Shown here: positions 21,255 through 40,530 of the stretch, in pieces
Numbering within the stretch: position 1 is the stretch's first letter
How the letters are laid out: the number at the start of each line of letters is the position of its first letter
Assembly: GCF_009834915.1 (NCBI RefSeq)
Contig: NZ_WVHS01000002.1
Coordinates: 1,116,001-1,180,000, forward strand
Direction: 5' to 3'
DNA: 64,000 bases
From: Hufsiella ginkgonis
GTDB taxonomy: Bacteria; Bacteroidota; Bacteroidia; Sphingobacteriales; Sphingobacteriaceae
Notes under the pieces: model-generated
Databases searched by the model: none
The model's input: only the letters and a program-made list of their open reading frames with translations
What the model was told of the DNA's origin: nothing
Made by a program: the position numbers and the translations under genes

Positions 21255-22115
21255 TCAATACTGATGGAACCCCTGCGACACGAACTCCAGCACCACGGGA
21301 AGTGAGCCGCGCCAGTAGGTCCAGGTGTGGCCACCTTCGCGGATACGGAACTCGTGCGGAATCTCTTTCTTCCGCATGGCGATGTGTACCAGGTCATTAC
21401 CCTCGTACAGGAAATCATCGTCGCCGATATCGATAAACCAGCGAACGGCCTTTTTCTGAACATCGGGCATGTTATTCATCATGGCCACTACGCTATGGAG
21501 GTTATAGTACCCGGTAACAAGGGTATCCGTGGCAGCGGGCAGGGTTCGGGTAATGTTACGGCGGGCCTCATCCAGCGTAAGCGGACCGGTTGCGGCACTT
21601 AGCGGACAAGCAGACGAAAACAGCTCCGGGTGGTGAAGGGCATACACGAAAGTACCGCCGCCGCCCATGGAAAGGCCTGAGATCGCGCGGAACCGCTTCT
21701 CGCCCCTGATGCGGTATTTTTTCTCAATGGTGGGCATAAATTCCGTGAAGAAAAAATCCTCGTAATTCCAGTCGCCTTTGGGATCGTTAAAGTAACCGCG
21801 GCGGCCGGTATTCCCATCGGGCATCACAATGATCATAGGCGTAGCCTTTCCTTCGGCGATGGCGCGGTCGGTGATGTTAAGCACCTCGCCAAATTGCACC
21901 CAACCGGTCTGGTCATCGCCGGCGCCATGCAGCAAGTAAAGTACCGGGTAGCTGCGTCCAGAAGTTTCGTAATCGGGTGGCAGGTAAACGGCGTATTTGC
22001 GCTCCATCTTTAACAGCTTACTTGGCACTGTGAGGTTGTCATACACTTTTCCGCTTTGCGCGAATACAGAACAGGTAATCAACGCGTATACTGTGAGAAA
22101 GGAGAATCGTTTCAT
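21255..22115 (-). CDS. Secreted esterase, enterochelin-esterase/feruloyl-esterase-like (putative esterase family)
   Basis: A 286-residue alpha/beta hydrolase with signal peptide (1-19). Motifs are VLYLLHGAGDDQTGW (oxyanion region), the nucleophile elbow GLSMGGGG with catalytic Ser, DIGDDDFLYEGND supplying the acidic residue, and EGGHTWTYW with the catalytic His. The overall plan matches the esterase D/Fes/XynZ-C family, whose members in polysaccharide loci remove feruloyl or acetyl esters. The start is preceded at 22121-22135 by the 15-base leader shared with susC. It may form a regulon with the nearby SGNH enzymes and SusCD. Confidence 0.88.
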   Translation of the reverse strand: MKRFSFLTVYALITCSVFAQSGKVYDNLTVPSKLLKMERKYAVYLPPDYETSGRSYPVLYLLHGAGDDQTGWVQFGEVLNITDRAIAEGKATPMIIVMPDGNTGRRGYFNDPKGDWNYEDFFFTEFMPTIEKKYRIRGEKRFRAISGLSMGGGGTFVYALHHPELFSSACPLSAATGPLTLDEARRNITRTLPAATDTLVTGYYNLHSVVAMMNNMPDVQKKAVRWFIDIGDDDFLYEGNDLVHIAMRKKEIPHEFRIREGGHTWTYWRGSLPVVLEFVSQGFHQY

Positions 22116-22370: not shown

Positions 22371-24278
22371 TTAACTTACCAGGATCTCTATCGTAATCTT
22401 ACCGCCGCCGGCGGATATTGGCACCGCCTCCAGGCCGGGCACGAAATTAAACAATCTTTGCTGCGTAACGGGCAGCCGGGTCAACAACTGGTCTGATAAG
22501 ATGGTTACGGTTGACCTTGCTTTTTTAACGGTGATCTTCCGGTCGGATAACACCCGGACCGTTTCATCTGCGCGTGAGATCACCGGTAAGATCAGCCTGA
22601 TCTCCCGGTTCTCCGGCTGATCGTGTGTGAAAGTAATGACTACTTTTTCCGCAGAAAACATATAGCTCACTTCGCAATGTACCGGACCGGTCGACGGATC
22701 CTTTTGGGCTTTGTCCACGAGGCGCGAACGTGTTTTCACCATTACTTTTCCCTTTTCGTTGCTGTCGCTCACAACCGCCTGCAGATCGCTTATATTCCTG
22801 TACGTGTTGTGATCGGTTCGCCACTCCAGCCTTGGTGTAAGCGGCATGCTCAGCGGGTCGTTATCTGCCTGCATGTTGCCGGCTTCAATCAACGTATAAT
22901 CCGTCATACTCGCCGCCAGGATCGGGCCGGCGTGCTCATGCCATAACATGGAAAGTGCGCCGCCGGATGCGTGACCATTCTGGTCGGGGTGGTATTCGCG
23001 GTCGTAGCCGGTTACGGTTGCGCGGAATTTACCGGTTGAGACCAGGCAGGTCTGGATGTCGTTAAAAAATCGCCCGCCGTAAACTTTTTCGCGGGGAAGA
23101 ACAATCTTCGGGAGATCATATTTCTTTTCGGCATTGCCATGATCCAGAATAGTAGTAAGTGCCTTGATGTGGCAGAACGTATGGTGCACACTGGGCGGTA
23201 CCTGGTGCGAACGATAATGCGGGCCGCCATACAGCAGCCCCCCGTCTGTACATTGCCGCAGCAGCTCCGTATTACGCAGTGCCGCTTTATAGAACCGCGG
23301 ATCACGGTCTGCCAGCAAGGCATAAGCGGGCTGGCAACCATCCGAAGTACGACTGCCCCAGTACGTCCATTTATAGTTGCGGGTTCCCCAGCTATTGTCC
23401 CATCCCCCATCGGGCAGCATAAATTCCATATGGGTTTGAAGCGAGCGGGTGGCGGCGGCGAGCACTTCTTCGTCCCCGGTAAACAGGCCGTACAAAACCA
23501 GCGAGGGGAGCGACTCTTCTACGTTATAGCCAAGATCAACGGAAAAACAACCCTTTTTACTCGGTTGGTCGTAAGGCCTTCCTTCCCCGTAGAGGAATCC
23601 CTCTTTCGTAAAAAAGGGCAGGGTTTGTTTGGCAAGCATCTTCCCCTTTTCCCGGTATTTAGGTATATCCAACAGCGTGCCGAGGAGTGTGAGCGCGTAC
23701 GATGCCGAGATGGGGTAGTTGATATTTCCGTAATCGATCGAAAATGTATCGTACACATATTCGCCGGCCTTCCGCAGGCGGTCTTCCATCTCCTTTTTAA
23801 AGGATGGGTCGAGTATGGCGCCATGGTTCTTCAGTGTCTCGCAAAAGGCAATGATGGTGAACACGGTCGTCCCTTTCCACGATCCCTTTACCGGTTCGTT
23901 AAGCCATGACCCGTCGTCCTGGCTTACGCGGCGCTCCATCCAGCGATACAGTAATACCGAAGCGTCGAGGTAACGGCTGTCGCTGGTTTTTGCGGCCATA
24001 TAAGCGAAGGGATAGATGCTATCGGCCACACGGCCATGCACCAGTTTATTGGCGGGGCACCAGATACCTCCATAATCGGCGTCACGGGCAGCATCGGTAA
24101 CCTGCAGCGCTAGCAACGCCTTAGCCCATTGTTCAACCAGCGATTTGCTGAGTGCGTATAGCGGCGACGACGCGGCAGTCGGTATAGCGGCAAAACAATC
24201 CGGTAATTGAAAACCGGCAGCGGCGCCTGCTATGGCGGTGGTGCGAATAAAATCTCGGCGGGTTTGGATCTGCTTCAT
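22371..24278 (-). CDS. Tat-exported alpha/alpha-toroid-like protein, putative polysaccharide-active enzyme
   Basis: A 635-residue protein beginning with a twin-arginine signal (MKQIQTRRDFIRTTAIAGAAAG), so it is exported folded. ATG at 24278 is chosen because the 16 residues added by the upstream ATG would bury the Tat motif. Residues ~45-390 look like a helical toroid: repeated helices with YPFAYMAAKTSD, a GGIWCPA segment near the start, and DGGWDNSWGTRNYKWTYWGSRTSDG. The last ~240 residues are beta-rich, as in the C-terminal domains of heparinase-II/III- or alginate-lyase-like proteins. I do not recognise the exact family. Its place beside SusD/SusC suggests a glycan lyase or hydrolase of that locus. 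A terminator separates it from susD, so it may have its own promoter. Confidence 0.6.
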   Translation of the reverse strand: MKQIQTRRDFIRTTAIAGAAAGFQLPDCFAAIPTAASSPLYALSKSLVEQWAKALLALQVTDAARDADYGGIWCPANKLVHGRVADSIYPFAYMAAKTSDSRYLDASVLLYRWMERRVSQDDGSWLNEPVKGSWKGTTVFTIIAFCETLKNHGAILDPSFKKEMEDRLRKAGEYVYDTFSIDYGNINYPISASYALTLLGTLLDIPKYREKGKMLAKQTLPFFTKEGFLYGEGRPYDQPSKKGCFSVDLGYNVEESLPSLVLYGLFTGDEEVLAAATRSLQTHMEFMLPDGGWDNSWGTRNYKWTYWGSRTSDGCQPAYALLADRDPRFYKAALRNTELLRQCTDGGLLYGGPHYRSHQVPPSVHHTFCHIKALTTILDHGNAEKKYDLPKIVLPREKVYGGRFFNDIQTCLVSTGKFRATVTGYDREYHPDQNGHASGGALSMLWHEHAGPILAASMTDYTLIEAGNMQADNDPLSMPLTPRLEWRTDHNTYRNISDLQAVVSDSNEKGKVMVKTRSRLVDKAQKDPSTGPVHCEVSYMFSAEKVVITFTHDQPENREIRLILPVISRADETVRVLSDRKITVKKARSTVTILSDQLLTRLPVTQQRLFNFVPGLEAVPISAGGGKITIEILVS

Positions 24279-24308
24279 ATAGCGTTTATACGAATGAATG
24301 TAAGTTAT

Positions 24309-24339
24309 AAAAAAGGCCCCATTCAATTGAATGAGGCCT
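24309..24339 (-). terminator. Rho-independent terminator downstream of susD
   Basis: On the minus strand an 11-bp stem (AGGCCTCATTC paired with GAATGGGGCCT, one G-T wobble) with loop AATT is followed by a run of six T. It lies 27 bases past the susD stop and should end the susC-susD transcript before the Tat-exported gene. Confidence 0.8.
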
Positions 24340-24349
24340 CGCCATTGTA

Positions 24350-24369
24350 CTAACTAACTAACTAACTAA
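24350..24369. repeat. CTAA tetranucleotide run over the susD stop codon
   Basis: Five tandem CTAA units run across the stop codon of susD (TAG, read on the minus strand, within TTAG repeats). Slippage here would change only the last residues or the stop position. Confidence 0.7.
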
Positions 24370-26246
24370 GGGAGCTTGTCTAAGGCAGGAACGTTAAGTT
24401 CATAGCCTGTATATCCTTTGTTCTGGTTGATACGTCCGTTGGTATTGAACCGCTGGGCGCTTGCCGGAACCGGCCATAATACGTGGTACGGTGCGATCTG
24501 GAATCTCACGCCACTCACGGTAGGAACCTTATCCCGGTAGAATTCGTTCTTTTCAATAATGCGATCGTACATATAGTTGTTGTCTGAGAACGTAGCAAGC
24601 GAATAGGTTTTACCGTTCGGAGCCGTTTTACCGGTCGATGCAAAGATGTAAGCAATACGGGTCAGCTCGCTTTTGCGGGGCTCTTCGTAATAAAGCTCGC
24701 GTGCACGCTCATCGAGAATAGTGCTGATATTAACTTTCGAGGCATCGGTCAGCGGCGCAGCGTTTGCGCGTGTCCGGACCTGGTTGATATCCGCCATGGC
24801 CAAAGCCAGCTCGCCTTTCCAGACGTAGGCTTCCGCACGCAGCAGGTAGGTTTCCGCTAAACGGAACACATACCAGTCAGTATTGGTACCTCTTGGCGGC
24901 GACCACCATTTATCTACCGCCAACGCGTTGGTGGAGTTGATAAAGGTTTTGTAATGCGGCCATCCGAACCAGTGACGGATCGTATCGAGCGATTTGTTGG
25001 TAAACATGTTATTTACCGTAGTCGAATTGTATTGCACCAACGGTTGCCCGTAAAGTGCCTTTTCAGTTGGATTGGTAGAGGTTTTGAGCGCCGGGTTGTT
25101 GTATACCAGGTCTGTCATATCCATCCACATGCCTTTCGCATGGCGATAATCGGTATTGTCTGTCCAGATATATTTAGTGGCATAAGGCGTACCGCGGTAG
25201 CGTCCGATGCCGCGGCCATACATCAGTGTAAGCGGGATCTCGGCGGTTACCGCATCGGTGATGGCCTGGTTAGCGCCGGACGGCGTTCTGAGTAAGTTCA
25301 GGTGCCACATCGGTACGCAGTTACGCATTACCTGCGAGCCGCTTCCGGTCGAACTGCTCACAAATGCCTCCCGGTCGATCACCAGGTAAAGAGTTTCCTT
25401 GTTAGCTGCGATGGCTTTGTTATCCATACGGTGAAGGTCCCATATCACGTTCTTTGAAGCATCGCCGGCCGTACTGCCGAAACGTGTACGCATCAGTGAA
25501 TAGGTAGTTCCGCCGATCACGCTGCTGGCGGAAGCGATCGCATCGTCAAATTTGCCCAATGCCAGGTTCACTTTAGTGAGGAGGTGGCTGATCGCTCCTT
25601 TGGTTACTTCACCCCTGTTGGCTACGTCAGTTACGTTTGCCTGCGCAAACTCGAGGTCTGCTTTCATTTTGGTGAGGATCACCTCACGTTTAGTGGAATA
25701 AAAGTCGTCTTTCGGCGCATCCAGGTCGCTTAACAGCAGCGGCACATCGCCGAACTGGTGTACTAACCGGTAGTAAAAATACGCGCGGAAGAAATAAGCC
25801 GACCCCAGGATGGAGTTTTTCTCCGCTGCGTTGGCATAGGTTGGCACGTCGATATTAGAGATCACCGTATTGGCCTGGCGTATGCCCCTAAAAAAGTTCG
25901 TCCAGTAGTAACCGATGCGGTTATAATCCGGGTTATCCAGCTCTGCTTCGGGAGTCACGCGGCTGATCATATCCTGGGCCTGTGTAGATTTATCGGTGGT
26001 ACCGTCAACCGCCACATCAGAAAAGATAGATTCGGTAACAATTGGCGCCATATCTCCGAAGAATTCGCCGCGGGTAGTTAAACCGGCGCCGGCGAGGGCG
26101 GCTTTCATCGCGGCAGGGGTAGTTAGCGACGCCGCAGGCTCGTATTTCGAAAGCGCGTTGTTGTCTAAATAGTCTTTTTTACACGCGTTCGCCGACAGCA
26201 GTACCGCCACGGAACTCATGATAATTAATTTATGATTGATCTTCAT
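24366..26246 (-). CDS. SusD/RagB-family nutrient-binding lipoprotein
   Basis: A 626-residue lipoprotein with signal peptide and lipobox ending in Cys22 (LLSANAC), so it is surface-exposed on the outer membrane. The N-terminal SusD-like region has KKDYLDNNALSKYEP, the conserved YYWTNFFRGIRQANTVI and SAYFFRAYFYYRLVHQFGDVPLL, which form the TPR-like helices. The C-terminal RagB region has RLAETYLLRAEAYVWKG, DINQVRTRA and ILDERARELYYEEPRKSELTR, ending GYTGYELNVPALDKLP. It binds oligosaccharide or another substrate and closes the top of the SusC barrel. It follows susC by 12 bases. The substrate is unknown. Confidence 0.96.
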   Translation of the reverse strand: MKINHKLIIMSSVAVLLSANACKKDYLDNNALSKYEPAASLTTPAAMKAALAGAGLTTRGEFFGDMAPIVTESIFSDVAVDGTTDKSTQAQDMISRVTPEAELDNPDYNRIGYYWTNFFRGIRQANTVISNIDVPTYANAAEKNSILGSAYFFRAYFYYRLVHQFGDVPLLLSDLDAPKDDFYSTKREVILTKMKADLEFAQANVTDVANRGEVTKGAISHLLTKVNLALGKFDDAIASASSVIGGTTYSLMRTRFGSTAGDASKNVIWDLHRMDNKAIAANKETLYLVIDREAFVSSSTGSGSQVMRNCVPMWHLNLLRTPSGANQAITDAVTAEIPLTLMYGRGIGRYRGTPYATKYIWTDNTDYRHAKGMWMDMTDLVYNNPALKTSTNPTEKALYGQPLVQYNSTTVNNMFTNKSLDTIRHWFGWPHYKTFINSTNALAVDKWWSPPRGTNTDWYVFRLAETYLLRAEAYVWKGELALAMADINQVRTRANAAPLTDASKVNISTILDERARELYYEEPRKSELTRIAYIFASTGKTAPNGKTYSLATFSDNNYMYDRIIEKNEFYRDKVPTVSGVRFQIAPYHVLWPVPASAQRFNTNGRINQNKGYTGYELNVPALDKLP

Positions 26247-26258
26247 GTCTGTTCAGTT

Positions 26259-29200
26259 TTACAATGAAACATTTAAGCCAAGCGTGTAATACCTTGGGGT
26301 CGGGCCGCCGTTCTGCGGATCCCAATATTTCCAGTCAGGAGCGTACACGCCTGCATTCGCTACGTTTACGTACAGCTTCGCGTTCTGGATCTTAGCCCTG
26401 GTAAGCAGCATTTTAGGGATACTGTAAGAAAGCGCAACCGTATTCAGCCTGATGAACGAGCTTTTTGCGTACACGTTAAAGCTTGTTCCGCTGAATGCTG
26501 AATTGATGCGCGCATAATCGTTGATCGGGTTCTCAGGCGTCCAGTAAGGAACCGCGTAAGAGTTGGTCCTGAAATAACCTACCCCACCGATGTTGTTCTT
26601 GCGGAGGTTATCTGTAGCATACTGGCCCCAGCTGGAAACCAACTGGAACGAGAAGTCGAAGTTTTTGTAGATGTTAAACTCGTTGCGCATCGACCAGTTG
26701 AAGCGTGGGTTACTGTAACCGAGGTACTGCTTATCGGCATCGGTGTACAAATAGTCTCCGTTTACGTCCTCAAGCTTAAAGTCACCCGCCTTGATGCCCG
26801 CTTTGGTGTACTTGGCTGCTTCGGTAAGCTCATCCGCCTGCCATACGCCAAGGATCTTGTAGTCCCAGATCACGTCGATGTCTTTACCGATGAACCAGCC
26901 GTTGCCAAGATCATTGGCAGGTGTCGCCAGCTTGTCGATCTTGTTGCGGTTCAGGAAGAAATTTACACTGGTGTTCCAGCTAAAGTTCTTGGTAGACATA
27001 TTCTTGCTGGTTACGCTGGCCTCAAAACCGCGGTTACTTACCTGTGCCAGGTTCGATGTTACGTTAGAGTAACCGGTGATGTTAGGCAATGTCTGGCTGA
27101 TCAGCAGGTCGGTGGTTTTTTTGTCGTAACCATCAAAGGTGGCGGTGAACCGGTTATTAAGGAACGCCAGGTCGAGCCCGAAGTTGAGGGAAGCTGTCTT
27201 CTCCCACTTCAGACCGCTGTTCCCGATCCTGTTGTTTACCGACACGGTGTTGATCTCGCTTGCCGAACCGCTGCTGTTCACCAGCTGGTATTTACCCACG
27301 TCGAGCTGTGATAACGCCACATACGGGTCGATGGTGCCTGAACTGCGCACCTCGCGGTTACCGTTGATACCGTATGATAGGCGGATCTTACCGTAGTTAA
27401 GCACGTTACCGATCGATTTCAGGAAGGGCTCCTCGGTGAAGGTCCATGCCAGTGCGCCGGCGGGGAATGTAGCACGCTTGTTTTGCGCACCAAACCCGGA
27501 GTATCCGTCCCTGCGAACAGAAAGGGTCAGGCTGTAGCGTGACATCAGCGAATAATTCAAACGGGCCATCAGGGCGTCGCCGGTATAGATCCGGTCGTCG
27601 CTGCTTACGGTTGGCGTGGTTCCGCTGGCCAGGTTATGGTAACCGAGAATGTCACTTGGCACAAACCCGGTGTTGGATGCAATGGTATACCAGGTTTGGT
27701 ATTTCTCTGCGTTCGCCAGCAAGGTAACATCTACGTTATGGATGTTCGCAAAGGTTTTGTTCCATTTTAACAGGTTATCTATCTGCCAGTTGTAACGGGT
27801 TTCGGTAGCACGTGACGCGGTGCCGCCCGGTGTGGTAACTTCCGGATTGAGTGAAGAGCCGGCGTTAAACGTGCGATAGCTGTCATAGCCAGGACTGAAG
27901 TTCAGTGAGTAAGTGATGCCGAAAGGTAGTGCCGCTTTCGCGTAAAGACTTCCGAATACGGTACCCTGTTTTTGTAACCTCGAGTTATAGGTAGTGGCAA
28001 GGAACGGGTTCCTGGCGTTCAAGCCGTTGTCGTCTGTCGGGATCCTTCTTATCGTTCCGTTGGCATTGTAGAAATCGCCGTAAGGCGAGAGGTTCACCAA
28101 CTGGCCCCAATCTGCTTCGATAGCGCCTTCATTCCGGTTAGCGAACTGCAGGTTCATCCCTACAGTGAGGAATTTCGCAGCCTTACCTTCCAGGTTCACT
28201 CTCGAACGGAACGAGCTGAAATCGCCGCCTTCGATCAGGTTTTCATTTTTTTGGTAGCCGAGCGACATATAATAGGTCACGTCTTCTTTGCGGCCGGATA
28301 AGCTGGCTGTATGGTCCTGGCGTTTGCCATCGCGAAAGAGCAGGTCATACCAATCTGTTGTCTTACCGGCGAGATAATTGGCTTTTTCGTTATCCACGAG
28401 GCCGAGGCGGGTCAACCAGAGATCGGTGGGGTTAGTGGTGGTTTGCCCGTTCAGCCACTGTGTAAGGGTAACTCCGGCAGGCAGGTTGTTGGGATCGAGG
28501 TAAATGTACGCCGGGGTGGTTCCGCCGCTGCGGGCCACGTCGCCGCGCCATTTCAAAAAGCCCGGGCCGTCATATACGTTCTGGTTTACCGACATCGTCG
28601 CCAGACCAACATTCGAATTCAGGCTGATCTGCGCTGCGCCTGCCCTGCCTTTTTTTGTGGTGATGGCTACCACACCGGTAGCCGCTTTTGCGCCGTAAAC
28701 TGCAAGAGAGCTCGCATCCTTTAATACGTCTACGGTTTCGATGTCGTTCGGGTTAATGTCAGACAACTGCCCGATGTAGATCACACCGTCCAATACGATG
28801 AGCGGGGAAGTGCTCGCGCTCAGGGTAGTTTTGCCACGTACCAGGAGGTCGCCGCCGCCTTTTGCCGAACTGTTATAGCTGACATTCAAACCGGCGATGT
28901 TACCGCGAAGGATATCTGCCACACTTTGTGGATTTTCGTTTTCGAGCTGCGTGGCACGTACGCTTGAAACCGCCCCGGTCACGTCCTTCTTTTGGGCAGT
29001 ACCGTAGCCGATCACTACCACTTCCTGTAATTGGGTCTTATCATCCACCAGTATAAAATCAACCGTCGAACGGCCGCTTACCGGCTGTTCCTGTGTTACA
29101 TAACTAATGCTGCTGGCTACCAGCACCGCGTCTGAAGGGGCGGAAATGGAATACGTTCCGTTAATGCCGGTCGAAACACCCGTGGTAGATCCCTTTACCC

Positions 29201-29327
29201 TGATGGTTACACCCAGCAGCACCTCGCCCTTACTGTCTTTCACCGTACCGGTAACCGTTTGCTGGGCCACAGCAAGGGAAATGGCAGAAAACAAGCACGC
29301 AATAAGAAGAGTAATTTGTTTTTTCAT
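26259..29327 (-). CDS. SusC/RagA-family TonB-linked outer-membrane transporter
   Basis: A 1022-residue TonB-dependent transporter. ATG at 29327 gives a proper signal peptide (MKKQITLLIACLFSAISLAVAQ); the upstream ATG only adds 18 non-hydrophobic residues. After it come a carboxypeptidase-regulatory-like beta-sandwich (~24-100), the plug domain starting VVIGYGTAQKKDVTGAVSSV with the SusC hallmark VLKDASSLAVYGAKAATGVV, and a 22-strand barrel ending RYYTLGLNVSL. It imports the ligand held by SusD into the periplasm using TonB energy. The usual N-terminal secretin-TonB extension that talks to an anti-sigma factor is absent, which agrees with the lack of an ECF/anti-sigma pair here. Confidence 0.96.
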   Translation of the reverse strand: MKKQITLLIACLFSAISLAVAQQTVTGTVKDSKGEVLLGVTIRVKGSTTGVSTGINGTYSISAPSDAVLVASSISYVTQEQPVSGRSTVDFILVDDKTQLQEVVVIGYGTAQKKDVTGAVSSVRATQLENENPQSVADILRGNIAGLNVSYNSSAKGGGDLLVRGKTTLSASTSPLIVLDGVIYIGQLSDINPNDIETVDVLKDASSLAVYGAKAATGVVAITTKKGRAGAAQISLNSNVGLATMSVNQNVYDGPGFLKWRGDVARSGGTTPAYIYLDPNNLPAGVTLTQWLNGQTTTNPTDLWLTRLGLVDNEKANYLAGKTTDWYDLLFRDGKRQDHTASLSGRKEDVTYYMSLGYQKNENLIEGGDFSSFRSRVNLEGKAAKFLTVGMNLQFANRNEGAIEADWGQLVNLSPYGDFYNANGTIRRIPTDDNGLNARNPFLATTYNSRLQKQGTVFGSLYAKAALPFGITYSLNFSPGYDSYRTFNAGSSLNPEVTTPGGTASRATETRYNWQIDNLLKWNKTFANIHNVDVTLLANAEKYQTWYTIASNTGFVPSDILGYHNLASGTTPTVSSDDRIYTGDALMARLNYSLMSRYSLTLSVRRDGYSGFGAQNKRATFPAGALAWTFTEEPFLKSIGNVLNYGKIRLSYGINGNREVRSSGTIDPYVALSQLDVGKYQLVNSSGSASEINTVSVNNRIGNSGLKWEKTASLNFGLDLAFLNNRFTATFDGYDKKTTDLLISQTLPNITGYSNVTSNLAQVSNRGFEASVTSKNMSTKNFSWNTSVNFFLNRNKIDKLATPANDLGNGWFIGKDIDVIWDYKILGVWQADELTEAAKYTKAGIKAGDFKLEDVNGDYLYTDADKQYLGYSNPRFNWSMRNEFNIYKNFDFSFQLVSSWGQYATDNLRKNNIGGVGYFRTNSYAVPYWTPENPINDYARINSAFSGTSFNVYAKSSFIRLNTVALSYSIPKMLLTRAKIQNAKLYVNVANAGVYAPDWKYWDPQNGGPTPRYYTLGLNVSL

Positions 29328-29756
29328 ACGAATTATTTGGTTAGTTAATTGATTTGGTGGGCTAAATTTAAAGGTGTTCAAGTTTAAAAAGCAAATAAAA
29401 AAACTCGTGACGTACTGATAATTAGGACGTTACAAATATTTTAATACGCTTCAGTCGCAAGCGGGACGTTCCTGCATTTTCGGAGGGAAATGAGCTGCAG
29501 AACAAAAAAATCACCAGATAACACTACATAATCACCACACTACTTGTGCCCCGCCGGTTACAACTAGTTAAAATTGATGAGGTTACTTGATATTGTACCA
29601 AGCAAAATTAAATCTGGTATCGTGATATAAATCTGAGCAGATCGTACGGCAATCCGATAGCTCTCGCTATGGATGATACGGTTCATGAGCATTAAAAAAA
29701 TTATCCACAAATGCCGTGCAGAACAGCATAGATCAGGATGGATGGGGATTCAGCGG
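29328..29756. other. SusC upstream region
   Basis: 429 bases between the 7TM receptor gene and susC, both on the minus strand. The part next to susC holds the 15-base CTAACCAAA leader. The rest is AT-rich and has no good coding frame. I looked for the TAnnTTTG promoter element on the minus strand and found only imperfect matches, so the susC promoter is not placed. Confidence 0.5.
29336..29350 (-). promoter_or_regulatory. CTAACCAAA-type translation leader of susC
   Basis: Minus-strand AATTAACTAACCAAA ends 8 bases before the susC ATG and is identical over 15 bases to the leader of the esterase gene (22121-22135). Its proximity to the start favours a role in translation initiation. Confidence 0.5.
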
Positions 29757-31682
29757 TTATTGGGGGACCGTTTCGAACAGGATCTTACTCCACCCGGAAT
29801 TACCGCTCCCTTTAAGCGCCCGTTTTCGGGAATCCAGCACCTTTTTTACGCGGCTGGCATATACCCAGCAGGTACTTTGCCTGATACCCAGCTTTTCTGA
29901 CAGCTTATGCGACGAGATAGTGCCCTTACTGGTGTACATGAGGTACACGAGGTAAAACGCCTTATTGATAGGGATGCGGTTGTTTTCGAAAATGGTATTA
30001 TGGAGCACCGATTCCTCGTAGGCGCATTTAGTACAACGGCGATTATGCGGGATCCGGCCATTGCAAAACGTTTGGTTACCGCAGCGGACACAGGAATAAC
30101 CCTTCTCCCACTTCAGATCCGCCAGGAATTTATAACAGGAATCCCTGTCCGGATATTTCTGGCTAAACTCATCGAATTCCATGTCTGTAGACAGCACACG
30201 TGCATCCGTTACCTTCTCGATATTGGTTTTAAGCGTGATGTTGTCGTTCTCCAGCAGCACGTTCATCCGCGAGATCTCTTCCGCCTGCCGCTGCAGTATA
30301 AGATTGATGGAGATCAGCTCGGCATTCTGGTCCTCTATGATCTGGGACTTCTCGAACACCTCACGGGATTTCTCGACCACCTCTCTCGTCCTCTTTAGTA
30401 CCTGTGCCTCTAATTCCTTGTTAATGGAATCTTTCAGGCGGGCATTTACTTCCATCTGGCTGATGATCTTCTTCTGGGCTTTGTCCTTCTTCTTTTTCAG
30501 GAGACGAACCTGGTCGCCAATGGCAAAAGAGAGCAATACCATTTCGAGGACAAAACAAAAGCTCAGGCTGTAATAAAGAATGTAACCGGGAATAAACCGA
30601 CTGTAACCCAACACGTTAAGCACCTTCATAGTGAATCCCACGAACAGGAACCCGTAAGCCATCACAAAAAACCGTGCGGGCCGGTAACCGCTGCGCCAGA
30701 TCCACATCCCCGTAAAAAAGGCAAGAGTGAGCGGCACAAATTCGATGAACTTATAAATGAACCACTCCGGCTTATAAAACAGGCTTACCAGGAAAAAGGC
30801 GGTCCGCAGCACAATTACCACCTTAAAGACCTTATGTATTAACGGTGCTTTTGATTTTACGTGCAGCAGCTCGTTGGTAAAAACCAGGGAAAAGATGCTG
30901 ATCATGTAAAGTGCGATCCCATAGGCGTAATGATTCCATTTCGGGAAATCCGACCAGATGTATTGAAAAGCAATCCCATCAGCCGAAAGCTCATACAGGC
31001 CGATACTAAGAATATATAACACATAGAAAAGATACTGCCGCCTTCGCACTGCCATGAACATCAGCAGGTTATGAAAACTAAATATCAGGATCATCCCGTA
31101 AAACAGTCCGTAGGTAAAATACTCGGTGAGTCCGTATTTAATAAAGCGGCCCATGGTCCTGAACACCACGATCACGTTCACCGGCTGCGCAGATTTCACG
31201 CGGAAATAATACAGCCGCTCGCCGCTGGCATTCTTCGGGATCAGGAACTCGAAATTTTTATGCTCAAACATGCGCTCGGTAAAGTGCAGCCTGGCCCCGG
31301 CTACGCTTTTAAGGTATTTGCCTCCTGGTCCGGGTACGTAAGCTTCGATCGCATCTGTGGTCTGGTCGTAAAACTCAAACAGGGAATTACCCGCCAGCCC
31401 TTCAGGGAGTTTCACTTTAATACGATACCAATAGGCCGAAGCCTGGTGATAGTTCTTTGGATAATAATCCTTATTAGTGGTGAAACGATTTTCGAAAGCC
31501 GCGGACGAAACCTGTTCGAAAGTCAGCTTTCCCGAGGGATCTTCCAATCCTGCGAGATCTGACGTGTTAAAGATATATTCATCTGTTTTCTCACCAATGG
31601 TGATGGTTTTTTGGGCAAATGAAGGCAGAACACCAAAACACAGGAACAGGAAAACCAATCGGTTCAGCAAGCTTATCGTCAT
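29757..31682 (-). CDS. 7TMR-DISM receptor with coiled coil and C-terminal IS1595-transposase-like zinc ribbon and HTH
   Basis: A 641-residue protein. Order: signal peptide (1-24), periplasmic 7TMR-DISM extracellular beta domain (~30-175), seven membrane helices (~185-385), a Lys/Glu/Gln-rich coiled coil (~390-505), then a zinc ribbon CVRC(531-534)...CTKC(550-553) and TIFENNRIPINKAFYL followed by a helix-turn-helix (KGTISSHKLSEKLGIRQST). This tail matches the N-terminal DNA-binding part of IS1595/ISXO2-type transposases; no DDE catalytic domain follows. So the protein may be a membrane receptor that binds DNA directly. It is encoded 430 bases upstream of susC on the same strand and is the natural candidate for regulator of that locus (inference). 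Confidence 0.8.
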   Translation of the reverse strand: MTISLLNRLVFLFLCFGVLPSFAQKTITIGEKTDEYIFNTSDLAGLEDPSGKLTFEQVSSAAFENRFTTNKDYYPKNYHQASAYWYRIKVKLPEGLAGNSLFEFYDQTTDAIEAYVPGPGGKYLKSVAGARLHFTERMFEHKNFEFLIPKNASGERLYYFRVKSAQPVNVIVVFRTMGRFIKYGLTEYFTYGLFYGMILIFSFHNLLMFMAVRRRQYLFYVLYILSIGLYELSADGIAFQYIWSDFPKWNHYAYGIALYMISIFSLVFTNELLHVKSKAPLIHKVFKVVIVLRTAFFLVSLFYKPEWFIYKFIEFVPLTLAFFTGMWIWRSGYRPARFFVMAYGFLFVGFTMKVLNVLGYSRFIPGYILYYSLSFCFVLEMVLLSFAIGDQVRLLKKKKDKAQKKIISQMEVNARLKDSINKELEAQVLKRTREVVEKSREVFEKSQIIEDQNAELISINLILQRQAEEISRMNVLLENDNITLKTNIEKVTDARVLSTDMEFDEFSQKYPDRDSCYKFLADLKWEKGYSCVRCGNQTFCNGRIPHNRRCTKCAYEESVLHNTIFENNRIPINKAFYLVYLMYTSKGTISSHKLSEKLGIRQSTCWVYASRVKKVLDSRKRALKGSGNSGWSKILFETVPQ

Positions 31683-31889
31683 AGGGAATATAGATAATTG
31701 GTTACTGCCGAAGGTAAAAACAAATGGCGCCTGCTACAAATATCTTGCGGGTTAATTACGGAAACGTTTGCGGACTAAGCGTATCAAACACGTTCAGAAG
31801 CCATTTATCACTAGCTTCTTGAATGATTTGCCGCTATCGTTTGCACCAGCCCGCGTGAAACTTATCTTTGACCGTTCAATCCGTTAAAA

Positions 31890-37961: not shown

Positions 37962-40361
37962 CTATTCTCCATTCCCCATCCTCCCGACAACATAATGCAG
38001 CACCTTCCTGTACAACTCATCCGGCAGGAACGGCTTTACCACGATATCGTTGATCCCGGTGGCGGTGACCTCCTGTTCAATTTCGTTCGGGAGGTTAGCG
38101 GTAAGCGCAATGATGGGGATGGTAACTCCGCTGGCACGCATGCGTTTTGAGGCCTCGTAGCCATCCATTAAGGGCATGTGCAGGTCCATCAGCACCAGTT
38201 TATGGCGGTCGGTGTCCAGTTTATCCAGGGCCTCCCGCCCGTTTTGCGCCACGTCCGTAGCCGCGCCCCACTTTTTAAGGAACGATTGAGCTACCAGCAC
38301 ATTCATCGGGTTATCTTCTACCAGCAGGATACAAACGCCCGTCAGCGGTTTATCCTCCTCTTTGGGAAGGCTGTTCTCCCGTGTTTCCTGCCCGCGTGTG
38401 CGGATGCTTTTTTCGAACGTTTGCACAAAAAAGAACTCCGAGCCAATCCCCTCATCGCTTTGCAGCTGCAGCGACGAATGCTGGAGCTCGAGTATACGCT
38501 TGCAGATAGCCAGGCCCAGGCCCGTTCCGCCGAATCCTCTTGATGTGGACGAATCGGCCTGCGTAAACCGTTCGAAAATGAGCTTTTGTTTTTCCCTGGA
38601 GATCCCGATCCCGGTGTCCTTCACGCGGATGCGCAGTGTAATAGTCCGTTCTGTTTCTGCCTGTACCGCGATGCCAATCTCTACATATCCCTTCTGCGTG
38701 AACTTAATGGCATTGTGTACCAGGTTACTTATCACCTGGAAGATCCGCGTAGGGTCGCCCAGGAGTTTGTGCTGAAGCGCATTGTCCACCTGCAGTTTCA
38801 GCTCGATCCCCTTGTCCTGCGCAGGTCCCTGCAACCCCATTACAATGTTTCGGGTGATAGATACCAGGTCCATTTCGATATGCTCGAAGGATATCTTCCC
38901 GGCCTCGATTTTATTATAATCCAGGATGTCGTTCACGATCGCCAGCAGGTTGTTGGCCGAGAAAAGCATCACGTCCAGCTGCGCTACCTGGTCAGGGCGC
39001 GGATCATTCTTTAGCAGGAGATGGCTCATACCGATCACCGAATTGAGCGGGGTGCGGATCTCGTGGCTCATAGTGCTCAGGAACTCGCTTTTTGCCGTAA
39101 GGCCTTGCTCGGCCTGTGCACGCGCCTTTTTAAGGGTAAACGACACCCGGTGAGATAATACCAGCGACTGAAGGAAGAAAAAACTCACATAACACAAGAA
39201 GCTGAGCAGCTGCAGCGCCGGGATAAATCCCCAGTAATGGAACAGCGAGATGGCGAATATAGACATCAGCGCCACCGTGCTGATGAGCGAATAAATGGCT
39301 CCCGGCCTGCGCCTTTTATAGGCCTGCGTATACACGTAAGGTATGTACACCAGGCAAAACAACGTAAACAGCAGGAACGGGTTGATCAACCGTGTAAAAT
39401 AAACCGGTGCCAGCAGCAGCGTCGCCAGCGAAAAGGTCACGCAAATAACCAGCATCCCCTTAACGATCAGTTTGTTGATATCTTCCGGGTAGAGGTGCCG
39501 CGTATACAGGCCGAACAGGCCGATCCCTGTAAACAGCGTGATATATTCCAGCCGTACGGCGATCTGCCAGCTTAAACCCGGCAGCAGCGAATGGAGCACG
39601 TAATTGTCGACGCCCACGATCCGGTAACTATATACCATCGAGTAAAGAGAGAACAGCAGGATCGCCTTATCGCGGTTGCCAAGCAGGTACAGTCCCAGGA
39701 AAAACAACCCGCCCATAAACAGGCAGCCAGTAAGGAGCAGGTCGATGGCTTCGCCTTGCCGCCGGAGCAGGTCTACCGCGTCCGTTTGCCCGATCGTCAG
39801 CGGTTTATTTATCCCGCCGGAGCTATGCACGAAATTGGCGATCTGCAGCACCAGGTCCAGCGTATCGGTACCCGGCTCGATGTTCACGGCATGATACTCC
39901 CAATGTGGCACGAAATCTTTCACCGTGGTAGCTACCACCCCGTTAGCGGCCATCTCTTTCCCATTAATAAAAAGTTTGTAGGACGAATAGACGTCGGGCA
40001 TAGTGAGACTCAGCCTTTCTGACCTATGGGGAAGCAGCACCCGGACCTTATAGGTGGCATAACCAAATCCGCCGAGGCGTTCTCCTTTATACACAGACCC
40101 GTTCCACTTCGCTGGAAAGTCCACTAACTCGCGTTTACCCTTAACGGACGATGCGGGATCGAGCAGCCGCCGCCAGTAAAATTCCCACTGCCCGTTGAGG
40201 GCGATCTCGTTGCCGAACTTCTCGCCGCGCAGATCGATCACGCCGTTTTCGGCCACCGGTACACCAGGCCGGTCGGATAAATAGCCCGAAGCGGTGCCCG
40301 AAAGCACTAACAGGAAGAAACAACAGCAGGCTCTTTTCAGTATCTTAAAACACGGGTACAT
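37962..40361 (-). CDS. Hybrid histidine kinase with galactose-binding-like sensor and 7TM (DISM-type) region
   Basis: A 799-residue protein from ATG 40361, which gives a signal peptide (MYPCFKILKRACCCFFLLVLSG); an upstream in-frame ATG adds 29 unlikely residues. The periplasmic part (~30-190) resembles a sugar-binding jelly-roll (NGQWEFYWRRLL, GYATYKVRV, SYKLFINGKE). Seven membrane helices follow (~200-400), then HisKA with SHEIRTPLNSVIGM (phospho-His), HATPase with N box (NLVHNAIKFTQKG) and G boxes (DTGIGI, GGTGLGLAI), and a C-terminal receiver with ILLVEDN and LVLMDLHMPLMDG (phospho-Asp). There is no output DNA-binding domain, so it must pass phosphate to another protein. It could report on glycans or cell-envelope state. 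Confidence 0.92.
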   Translation of the reverse strand: MYPCFKILKRACCCFFLLVLSGTASGYLSDRPGVPVAENGVIDLRGEKFGNEIALNGQWEFYWRRLLDPASSVKGKRELVDFPAKWNGSVYKGERLGGFGYATYKVRVLLPHRSERLSLTMPDVYSSYKLFINGKEMAANGVVATTVKDFVPHWEYHAVNIEPGTDTLDLVLQIANFVHSSGGINKPLTIGQTDAVDLLRRQGEAIDLLLTGCLFMGGLFFLGLYLLGNRDKAILLFSLYSMVYSYRIVGVDNYVLHSLLPGLSWQIAVRLEYITLFTGIGLFGLYTRHLYPEDINKLIVKGMLVICVTFSLATLLLAPVYFTRLINPFLLFTLFCLVYIPYVYTQAYKRRRPGAIYSLISTVALMSIFAISLFHYWGFIPALQLLSFLCYVSFFFLQSLVLSHRVSFTLKKARAQAEQGLTAKSEFLSTMSHEIRTPLNSVIGMSHLLLKNDPRPDQVAQLDVMLFSANNLLAIVNDILDYNKIEAGKISFEHIEMDLVSITRNIVMGLQGPAQDKGIELKLQVDNALQHKLLGDPTRIFQVISNLVHNAIKFTQKGYVEIGIAVQAETERTITLRIRVKDTGIGISREKQKLIFERFTQADSSTSRGFGGTGLGLAICKRILELQHSSLQLQSDEGIGSEFFFVQTFEKSIRTRGQETRENSLPKEEDKPLTGVCILLVEDNPMNVLVAQSFLKKWGAATDVAQNGREALDKLDTDRHKLVLMDLHMPLMDGYEASKRMRASGVTIPIIALTANLPNEIEQEVTATGINDIVVKPFLPDELYRKVLHYVVGRMGNGE

Positions 40362-40530
40362 GGCGATGGAAACCCGGGCTAACAGCCGCAGGATTTCGAA
40401 GCCTAAAGATACGCATTTGGCGCAGAAACCGGGGCAGGCGAAAACCACTTCGGGGCTAACAATTTAACGCAAAGGTTAATATCCTTTACGTCCTTTACGT
40501 TAAAGCTTCGTGCTGTTTGCGTCCAAATCG

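Follow-up and report, generated by a model that had tools for sequence, protein, structure and literature searches.

In the 64,000-nucleotide stretch of Hufsiella ginkgonis DNA analysed here (the window), one gene codes for a receptor that is probably a membrane-anchored regulator of the one-component type, controlling the transcription of polysaccharide utilization loci (PULs), the means by which Bacteroidota eat complex glycans. Its C-terminal tail would bind an operator at these loci, most likely activating them. The tail descends from the zinc ribbon and helix-turn-helix (HTH) module of IS1595 transposases, and the receptor lies just upstream of SusC/SusD, as the first-pass annotation of this region had described; both genes are found downstream of it on the same strand. 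The features are collected in Table 1.

Table 1. Features of the receptor gene and its surroundings (window coordinates).
Feature	Position	Strand	Description and basis
Receptor gene	29757..31682	-	Intact ORF of 641 aa; a signal peptide-like N-terminus is followed by DISMED2, the 7TM domain, the long helix, the zinc ribbon and the HTH
7TMR-DISMED2 sensor, residues 43-174	31161..31556	-	Pfam E 9.4e-27, far over cut-off
7TMR-DISM_7TM (PF07695), residues 187-391	30510..31124	-	Pfam E 5.9e-43, 147.6 bits against a cut-off of 29
Continuous helix from TM7, residues 366-492	30207..30587	-	Predicted structure; presumed dimeric coiled coil
IS1595-type zinc ribbon, residues 514-555 (C531, C534, C550, C553)	30018..30143	-	Pfam, alignment
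HTH common to IS1595 transposases, residues 568-624	29811..29981	-	NF033547 match, alignment, predicted structure
Candidate operator before susC	29405..29451	-	Box A AAGCGTATTA (29442-29451), followed by box B TAATTATCAGT; 34.1 bits
Bacteroidota-type promoter	29363..29395	-	-33 TTTG, 21-bp spacer, -7 TAAATTTA; 56 bp from operator start
susC	26259..29327	-	TIGR04056 E 3.4e-207; signal-peptide ATG at 29327, listed ORF opens at TTG 29381
susD-like lipoprotein	24366..26246	-	SusD profile, in which the window sequence is one of five seeds
TAT-like-signal protein, same strand after susD	22371..24326	-	Pfam: no family over cut-off
Putative esterase (PF00756), same strand	21255..22115	-	Pfam
Isolated box A AAGCGTATCA, between receptor and divergent helicase gene	31777..31786	+	Pattern match; may be chance

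Architecture of the receptor

The reading of the protein as a 7TMR-DISM receptor with a zinc ribbon and HTH tail was borne out by Pfam, by NCBIfam and by the ribbon cysteines, Cys531, Cys534, Cys550 and Cys553, which are invariant in 33/33 receptors of this kind. No histidine kinase, receiver or AraC domain, and no sigma-70 or FecR-type domain, was detected in it by a Pfam scan at E <= 1. The full receptor was modelled with AlphaFold2 on 22 aligned receptors (mean pLDDT 81.6, pTM 0.57); after TM7 the predicted chain runs through the helix of residues 366-492, two short helices, the ribbon strands and the three HTH helices, with pLDDT <50 at residues 467-499. The tail modelled alone reached a pLDDT of 84.5 and a pTM of 0.74. 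When the predicted structures were compared with solved ones, the best match of the sensor fold was the periplasmic domain of RetS (2xbz, E 1.7e-5; 3jyb, E 3.0e-5), followed by weaker matches to GH2 enzymes and CBM6 (E about 0.003-0.03), and sensing of a glycan by DISMED2 would suit these last predicted likenesses. About 6 kb from the receptor (37962-40448, reverse strand) the window encodes another 7TMR-DISM protein, which has HisKA, HATPase and receiver domains and is a hybrid histidine kinase.

Transposase ancestry of the tail

Residues 514-555 matched PF12760 (Zn_ribbon_IS1595) in Pfam with E 0.0027 and 18.1 bits, under the curated cut-off of 25.4, and residues 568-624 matched model positions 2-59 of the NCBIfam IS1595 transposase family NF033547 (E 7.7e-6, 25.9 bits, the cut-off of 75 not being reached). 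When receptor tails were aligned with transposases, PF12760 was matched at E <= 0.01 by 25/25 members of the alignment and any other family by at most one of the 25, and a ribbon from another family was thus ruled out. The family of the ribbon had been fixed beforehand as a possible refutation; PF12760, NF033547 and the tree described below all gave an IS1595 origin. The region shared with transposases and the predicted helices start near residue 503, earlier than residue 525, from which the module had been said to begin. The loss of the catalytic DDE part was confirmed: the chain stops behind the HTH, the Pfam scan of the protein detected no DDE family, and a profile of eight IS1595-type proteins detected no DDE remnant downstream, in six frames of 29201-29800 at E <= 10.

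In a tree with 27 IS1595-type rows, some of which are truncated, the 33 receptor tails formed one branch (support 100/96) nested inside the transposases; its root was placed at the midpoint for drawing only. The sister group of the receptor tails consists of one protein with a DDE domain (L088; PF12762, E 1.6e-23; tail identity 47%) and four G162 proteins that are 43-48% identical to the receptor tail. A single domestication of an IS1595 module would be the simplest reading that fits these sequences. As to the G162 proteins themselves (L089, L090, L091 and L092), they have ~310 aa and keep the ribbon and the HTH, and the first two DDE aspartates are replaced at what we take to be the position of this motif; they are possibly a second, soluble domestication. 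The neighbouring genes that were scanned are of the DUF5916, BNR-repeat and GFO/IDH/MocA types.

Structural searches with the tail were also carried out. Foldseek gave no match at E <= 0.001, and the best PDB sequence against the tail profile reached only E 0.32. In VIA-align the best row was 4uus (Z 5.7, 59 residues, rmsd 2.8), and the transposase entries 8b4h and 1u78 (Z 4.4) stood amid many HTH proteins and are uninformative.

It is very improbable that the ribbon and the HTH have turned into a protein-protein or dimerisation module working off the DNA. The PF12760 score under the curated cut-off in the window protein would agree with such a change, as would the HTH, in which no column is fully invariant in the 33 receptors, and a few plasmid receptors that stop soon after it; against it stand the zinc cysteines kept in every receptor, the nearly invariant HTH columns such as T604, and the co-occurrence of the operator with the receptor presented below.

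Distribution and gene neighbourhood

The same full architecture was found in 33 distinct loci, all of them from Bacteroidota: the window, a paralogue in its own genome (L076, 51% identical to the window receptor), nine loci of Pedobacter, Mucilaginibacter and Chitinophaga (49-64% identity in the best segment), eleven loci of other genomes and eleven plasmid loci (Persicobacter, Flammeovirga and Aureibacter). Any match to the receptor at E <= 1e-30 was present in 29/296 Bacteroidota genomes, mostly to the sensor/7TM part alone, and full-length matches among these genomes were restricted to the own genome and eight others. These loci are related and therefore not independent. As 33 distinct loci carry the fusion, it is not a chance one: a recent insertion of an IS into the receptor gene, to which the mobile-element ancestry of the tail could point, was ruled out by these loci in several families, by the single well-supported tail clade and by the alignability of the receptors over their full length, and retains next to no probability.

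To map the neighbouring genes, SusC and SusD profiles were seeded with the window pair and annotated plasmid pairs, the SusD profile having five seeds, four of them annotated SusDs. The next same-strand gene after the receptor is susC in 11/33 loci (the window, L003-L007, L078-L080, L082 and L120), one or two genes lie between them in five more (L074, L077, L081, L083 and L084), and in 23 of the 33 SusC or SusD is no more than five mapped genes away in one direction or the other. For comparison, the window genome holds 44 SusC over the cut-off in 5.2 Mb, ~1% of its genes (gene number estimated). Enzymes of glycan degradation are encoded at several of the remaining ten loci. Genes of GH2, GH5 and pectate-lyase-like type surround the paralogue, and the same-strand cluster to which it belongs opens with SusC, SusD, GH16 and GH3; the receptor comes after GH81 in L085, with a similar layout in L086 and L087; L009 adjoins an alginate lyase and L011 a GH88 gene; and L075 is surrounded by GH3 (BglX), GH43, GH97 and sulfatase genes. 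Among the scanned genes of L008, L010 and L072 there was no clear case of a glycan-degradation neighbour. The co-occurrence with SusCD in relatives, the other check set in advance by the first-pass annotation, held, with SusCD or other glycan-degradation genes at most of the 33 loci.

Enzymes of beta-glucan type (GH81, GH16, GH3 and PF10091) were noted at receptor loci among L073, L074, L080, L081, L083, L085 and L095, which may hint at the ligand. In the window itself, the TAT-like-signal protein encoded after susD is a candidate for an unknown glycan-active enzyme.

A candidate operator at receptor-linked promoters

Inspection by eye of several intergenic regions between receptor and susC revealed a common AAGCGTATYA (box A), which belongs to an element of ~47 bp, AAGCGTATYAAAAT..TTATAA.....TAATTATCAGTTATTTATG (short form AAGCGTAT..TATCAGTTATTTATG). 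In 10/10 receptor-linked promoters examined (the window; L003-L007; L078; two in L077; and the susC of the paralogue's cluster) box A starts 56-57 bp before a promoter of the form NTTG-N19-22-TANNTTT(A/G); for the promoter of the window we used what we take to be the Bacteroidota consensus. When this spacing was first noticed, the proximal box A had been chosen by hand; the pattern and matrix tests were made afterwards. A second box A with 8 or 9/9 letters lies upstream in 9/10 of these promoters, the window's own being the one that lacks it, at 76 bp (one), 79 bp (five) or 88-90 bp (three); at least 7/9 letters of box A are found in 9% of random stretches.

By itself box A lacks specificity: the genome holds 38 exact copies of it, compared with 12 when the pattern is reversed. 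Within the window the exact motif occurs twice, in the susC operator and in the gap between receptor and helicase gene, the latter copy giving no matrix match >= 14 bits; the 12 copies with one mismatch are unremarkable, a number that 7/100 shuffles reach. A matrix was built from 29 sites of other genomes, after removal of those with the same sequence as a site of L003, L005, L006 or L007; two of the 29 score poorly in it (0.3 and 4.2 bits). At >= 29 bits it found nine sites, one per promoter and all with the promoter at 56-57 bp, in the window (34.1 bits), L003-L007, L077 (two promoters) and L125 (susC of the paralogue), the best score in reversed sequences (697,663 bases) being 14.5. The susC site of the window is weaker than every other matrix-found susC site except one in L077. 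Three matches of 14-18 bits (L011, L077 on the opposite strand and L087) lack a correctly spaced promoter and were discarded as chance. Sites >= 29 bits were absent from L008-L011, L076, L078-L087 and the plasmid loci; the site of L078 is a variant under the matrix threshold and that of the L076 cluster lies in L125. Since the matrix finds none in other clades, the operator is established for the Pedobacter/Mucilaginibacter-type clade only. The clade of L079-L082 is devoid of the AAGCGTAT element, and L079, L080 and L081 share, by eye, a stretch TTAAATC..TTTTTTCATGT, which is perhaps the operator of that clade.

Genomes were searched for a composite pattern in which box A and the promoter stand at a built-in spacing of 56-57 bp. 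The own genome gave 3 matches (reversed control 0), two of which stand before susC in the clusters of the two receptors; the third (L136, C1, site 845582) is found before a polysaccharide lyase 14-like gene, on a contig other than those of both receptors. In the family, 72 sites were found in 57/301 genomes (reversed control 4), and the tail at E <= 1e-20 in 113/301, a few weaker ones of which may be transposases. The pattern genomes comprise 49 with the tail and 8 without it (Fisher p 6e-17, relatedness ignored), while 64/113 tail genomes have no exact composite match, the pattern being strict and a few weak tails perhaps belonging to transposases. At least 41/72 sites lie <= 20 kb from a receptor.

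The 29 training sites are no test of this co-occurrence, because they were taken near receptors, and the remaining ones were scored outside the searched core (44 rows, 43 counted as untrained, since G616 is also in the training set). A score >= 8, a threshold set after seeing a gap between 9.6 and 4.7, was reached by 24/43, and all 24 are in receptor genomes. The 19 lower-scoring sites are divided into 11 in receptor genomes, which look like chance, and 8 outside, all below zero. At full quality and in its fixed position, the element was seen solely in genomes with the receptor.

Gene context was retrieved for seven near sites and for all 13 far sites, that is, those scoring >= 8 outside the window genome and >20 kb, or on another contig, from any receptor listed; for three of the 13 a receptor may be nearer, because their contigs are <110 kb and the ends close. 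SusC followed by SusD comes directly after 11/13 far sites (the SusC of L173 reads as two pieces), L172 precedes genes homologous (68 and 71%) to those of a GH30 + GH16 operon, and L170 precedes two GH2 genes. The near sites comprise four before SusC-SusD and three before the GH30 + GH16 operon. The element, chosen regardless of the position of the receptor, thus marks glycan-utilization promoters in receptor-bearing genomes, and this conserved, receptor-tied promoter element lends further support to the proposal of a one-component membrane regulator, whose tail would bind the DNA.

Palindromes were seen by eye in the gap after the receptor, ACGCAAACGTTTTCG, GCAAACGTTTGC and GCAA[TA]CGATTTCGGA in L003, L004 and L006, with similar ones in L083 and L079/L080/L082. 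They resemble what we take to be LacI/PurR sites and are perhaps a second input at receptor-linked promoters.

Proposed mechanism

Taking these data together, the periplasmic, RetS/CBM-like DISMED2 domain would sense a glycan product, and the 7TM domain and the long helix would relay the change inward. The cytoplasmic tail, derived from IS1595 and captured once, would bind the ~47-bp operator just upstream of -33 at susC and other glycan operons, and from there may act on RNA polymerase, activation being the most likely outcome.

An unlikely alternative is that another transcription factor of the regulon, a soluble one, recognises the operator, and that the receptor is a genetically linked sensor acting on this factor. 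The LacI/PurR-like palindromes of some intergenic regions suggest that more than one factor may act there; but full-quality operators were seen in receptor genomes only (24/24 untrained sites >= 8), and the receptor has a DNA-binding-type tail of its own and no kinase or other output domain. With receptor and operator unchanged, the tail could also repress susC and release it upon glycan sensing. Such repression is known to be within the reach of HTH one-component proteins, and the sign of the regulation is unreadable from sequence; we consider repression rather unlikely, given that the whole element is placed before the -33 hexamer, at a constant 56-57 bp, which is the usual place of an activator. 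A regulator that activates from the operator by its own tail is the reading we prefer.

The origin of the operator was also considered. IS1595-type elements are present many times over in CP012852.1 and CP012861.1 (L104 and L108-L119), as near-identical copies of which some form tandem pairs, and the ends of these multi-copy Persicobacter elements read GAGGTCGGTAG in the eight copies inspected. The operator as a relic of such IS ends was rejected for these elements, whose short ends are unlike it, but which are distant from the receptor tails. A broader scenario, which we put forward as doubtful, is that an IS1595 end-binding module, captured once, gave rise to a fourth class of Bacteroidota PUL regulators with clade-specific operators, the operator having descended from the ends of the ancestral element; if true, transposon DNA addresses became a nutritional regulon.

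Relation to known systems

The combination of DISMED2 and 7TM domains is common to RetS/LadS-type 7TMR-DISM sensors, and the predicted sensor fold of the receptor matches that of RetS; a LadS gene, annotated as a hybrid sensor kinase, is among its weaker protein matches. RetS/LadS-type sensors end in kinase/receiver domains. The name 7TMR-DISM reportedly dates from a paper of 2003. With IS1595-family transposases, the closest being L088 and the four G162 proteins, the receptor shares the zinc ribbon and HTH, but it has no DDE domain and carries the module at its C-terminus.

Three Bacteroidetes-specific types of PUL regulators have been described, namely SusR-like, HTCS and ECF sigma/anti-sigma (PMC3878776). 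By description, the receptor may be likened to the SusR-like type, likewise a membrane protein with a periplasmic sensor and a cytoplasmic DNA-binding part at sus promoters; its domain order fits such a protein, topology and binding being predicted for the receptor. Unlike this type, it has a DISMED2 and 7TM sensor, a transposase-derived zinc ribbon and HTH, and box A repeats 76-90 bp apart. The target genes are of the same kind as those of HTCS and ECF sigma/anti-sigma systems, whereas the receptor has no histidine kinase, receiver, AraC or sigma domain.

A fusion of 7TM and DNA-binding domains is not new as such, because a figure legend of PMC8092284 lists 7TMR-DISM among the domains accompanying the DNA-binding domain of the ChiS family. 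That domain is other than the receptor's, and the word zinc is absent from the available part of the text of PMC8092284. Signalling helices are said in PMC1592074 to connect HTH domains with signalling domains, though at a low frequency. In a search made mostly outside the subscription literature, we recognised no published description of a 7TMR-DISM-IS1595 fusion or of a 7TM PUL regulator.

The receptor is probably an undescribed kind of switch for the use of complex polysaccharides, and what is new here is a candidate operator tied to it. It would also give bacteria a clear example of a transmembrane receptor whose output is a transposase DNA-binding module put to new use. A further type of regulator, together with its candidate operator, would make many PULs of soil and marine Bacteroidota that have no known regulator testable at once.
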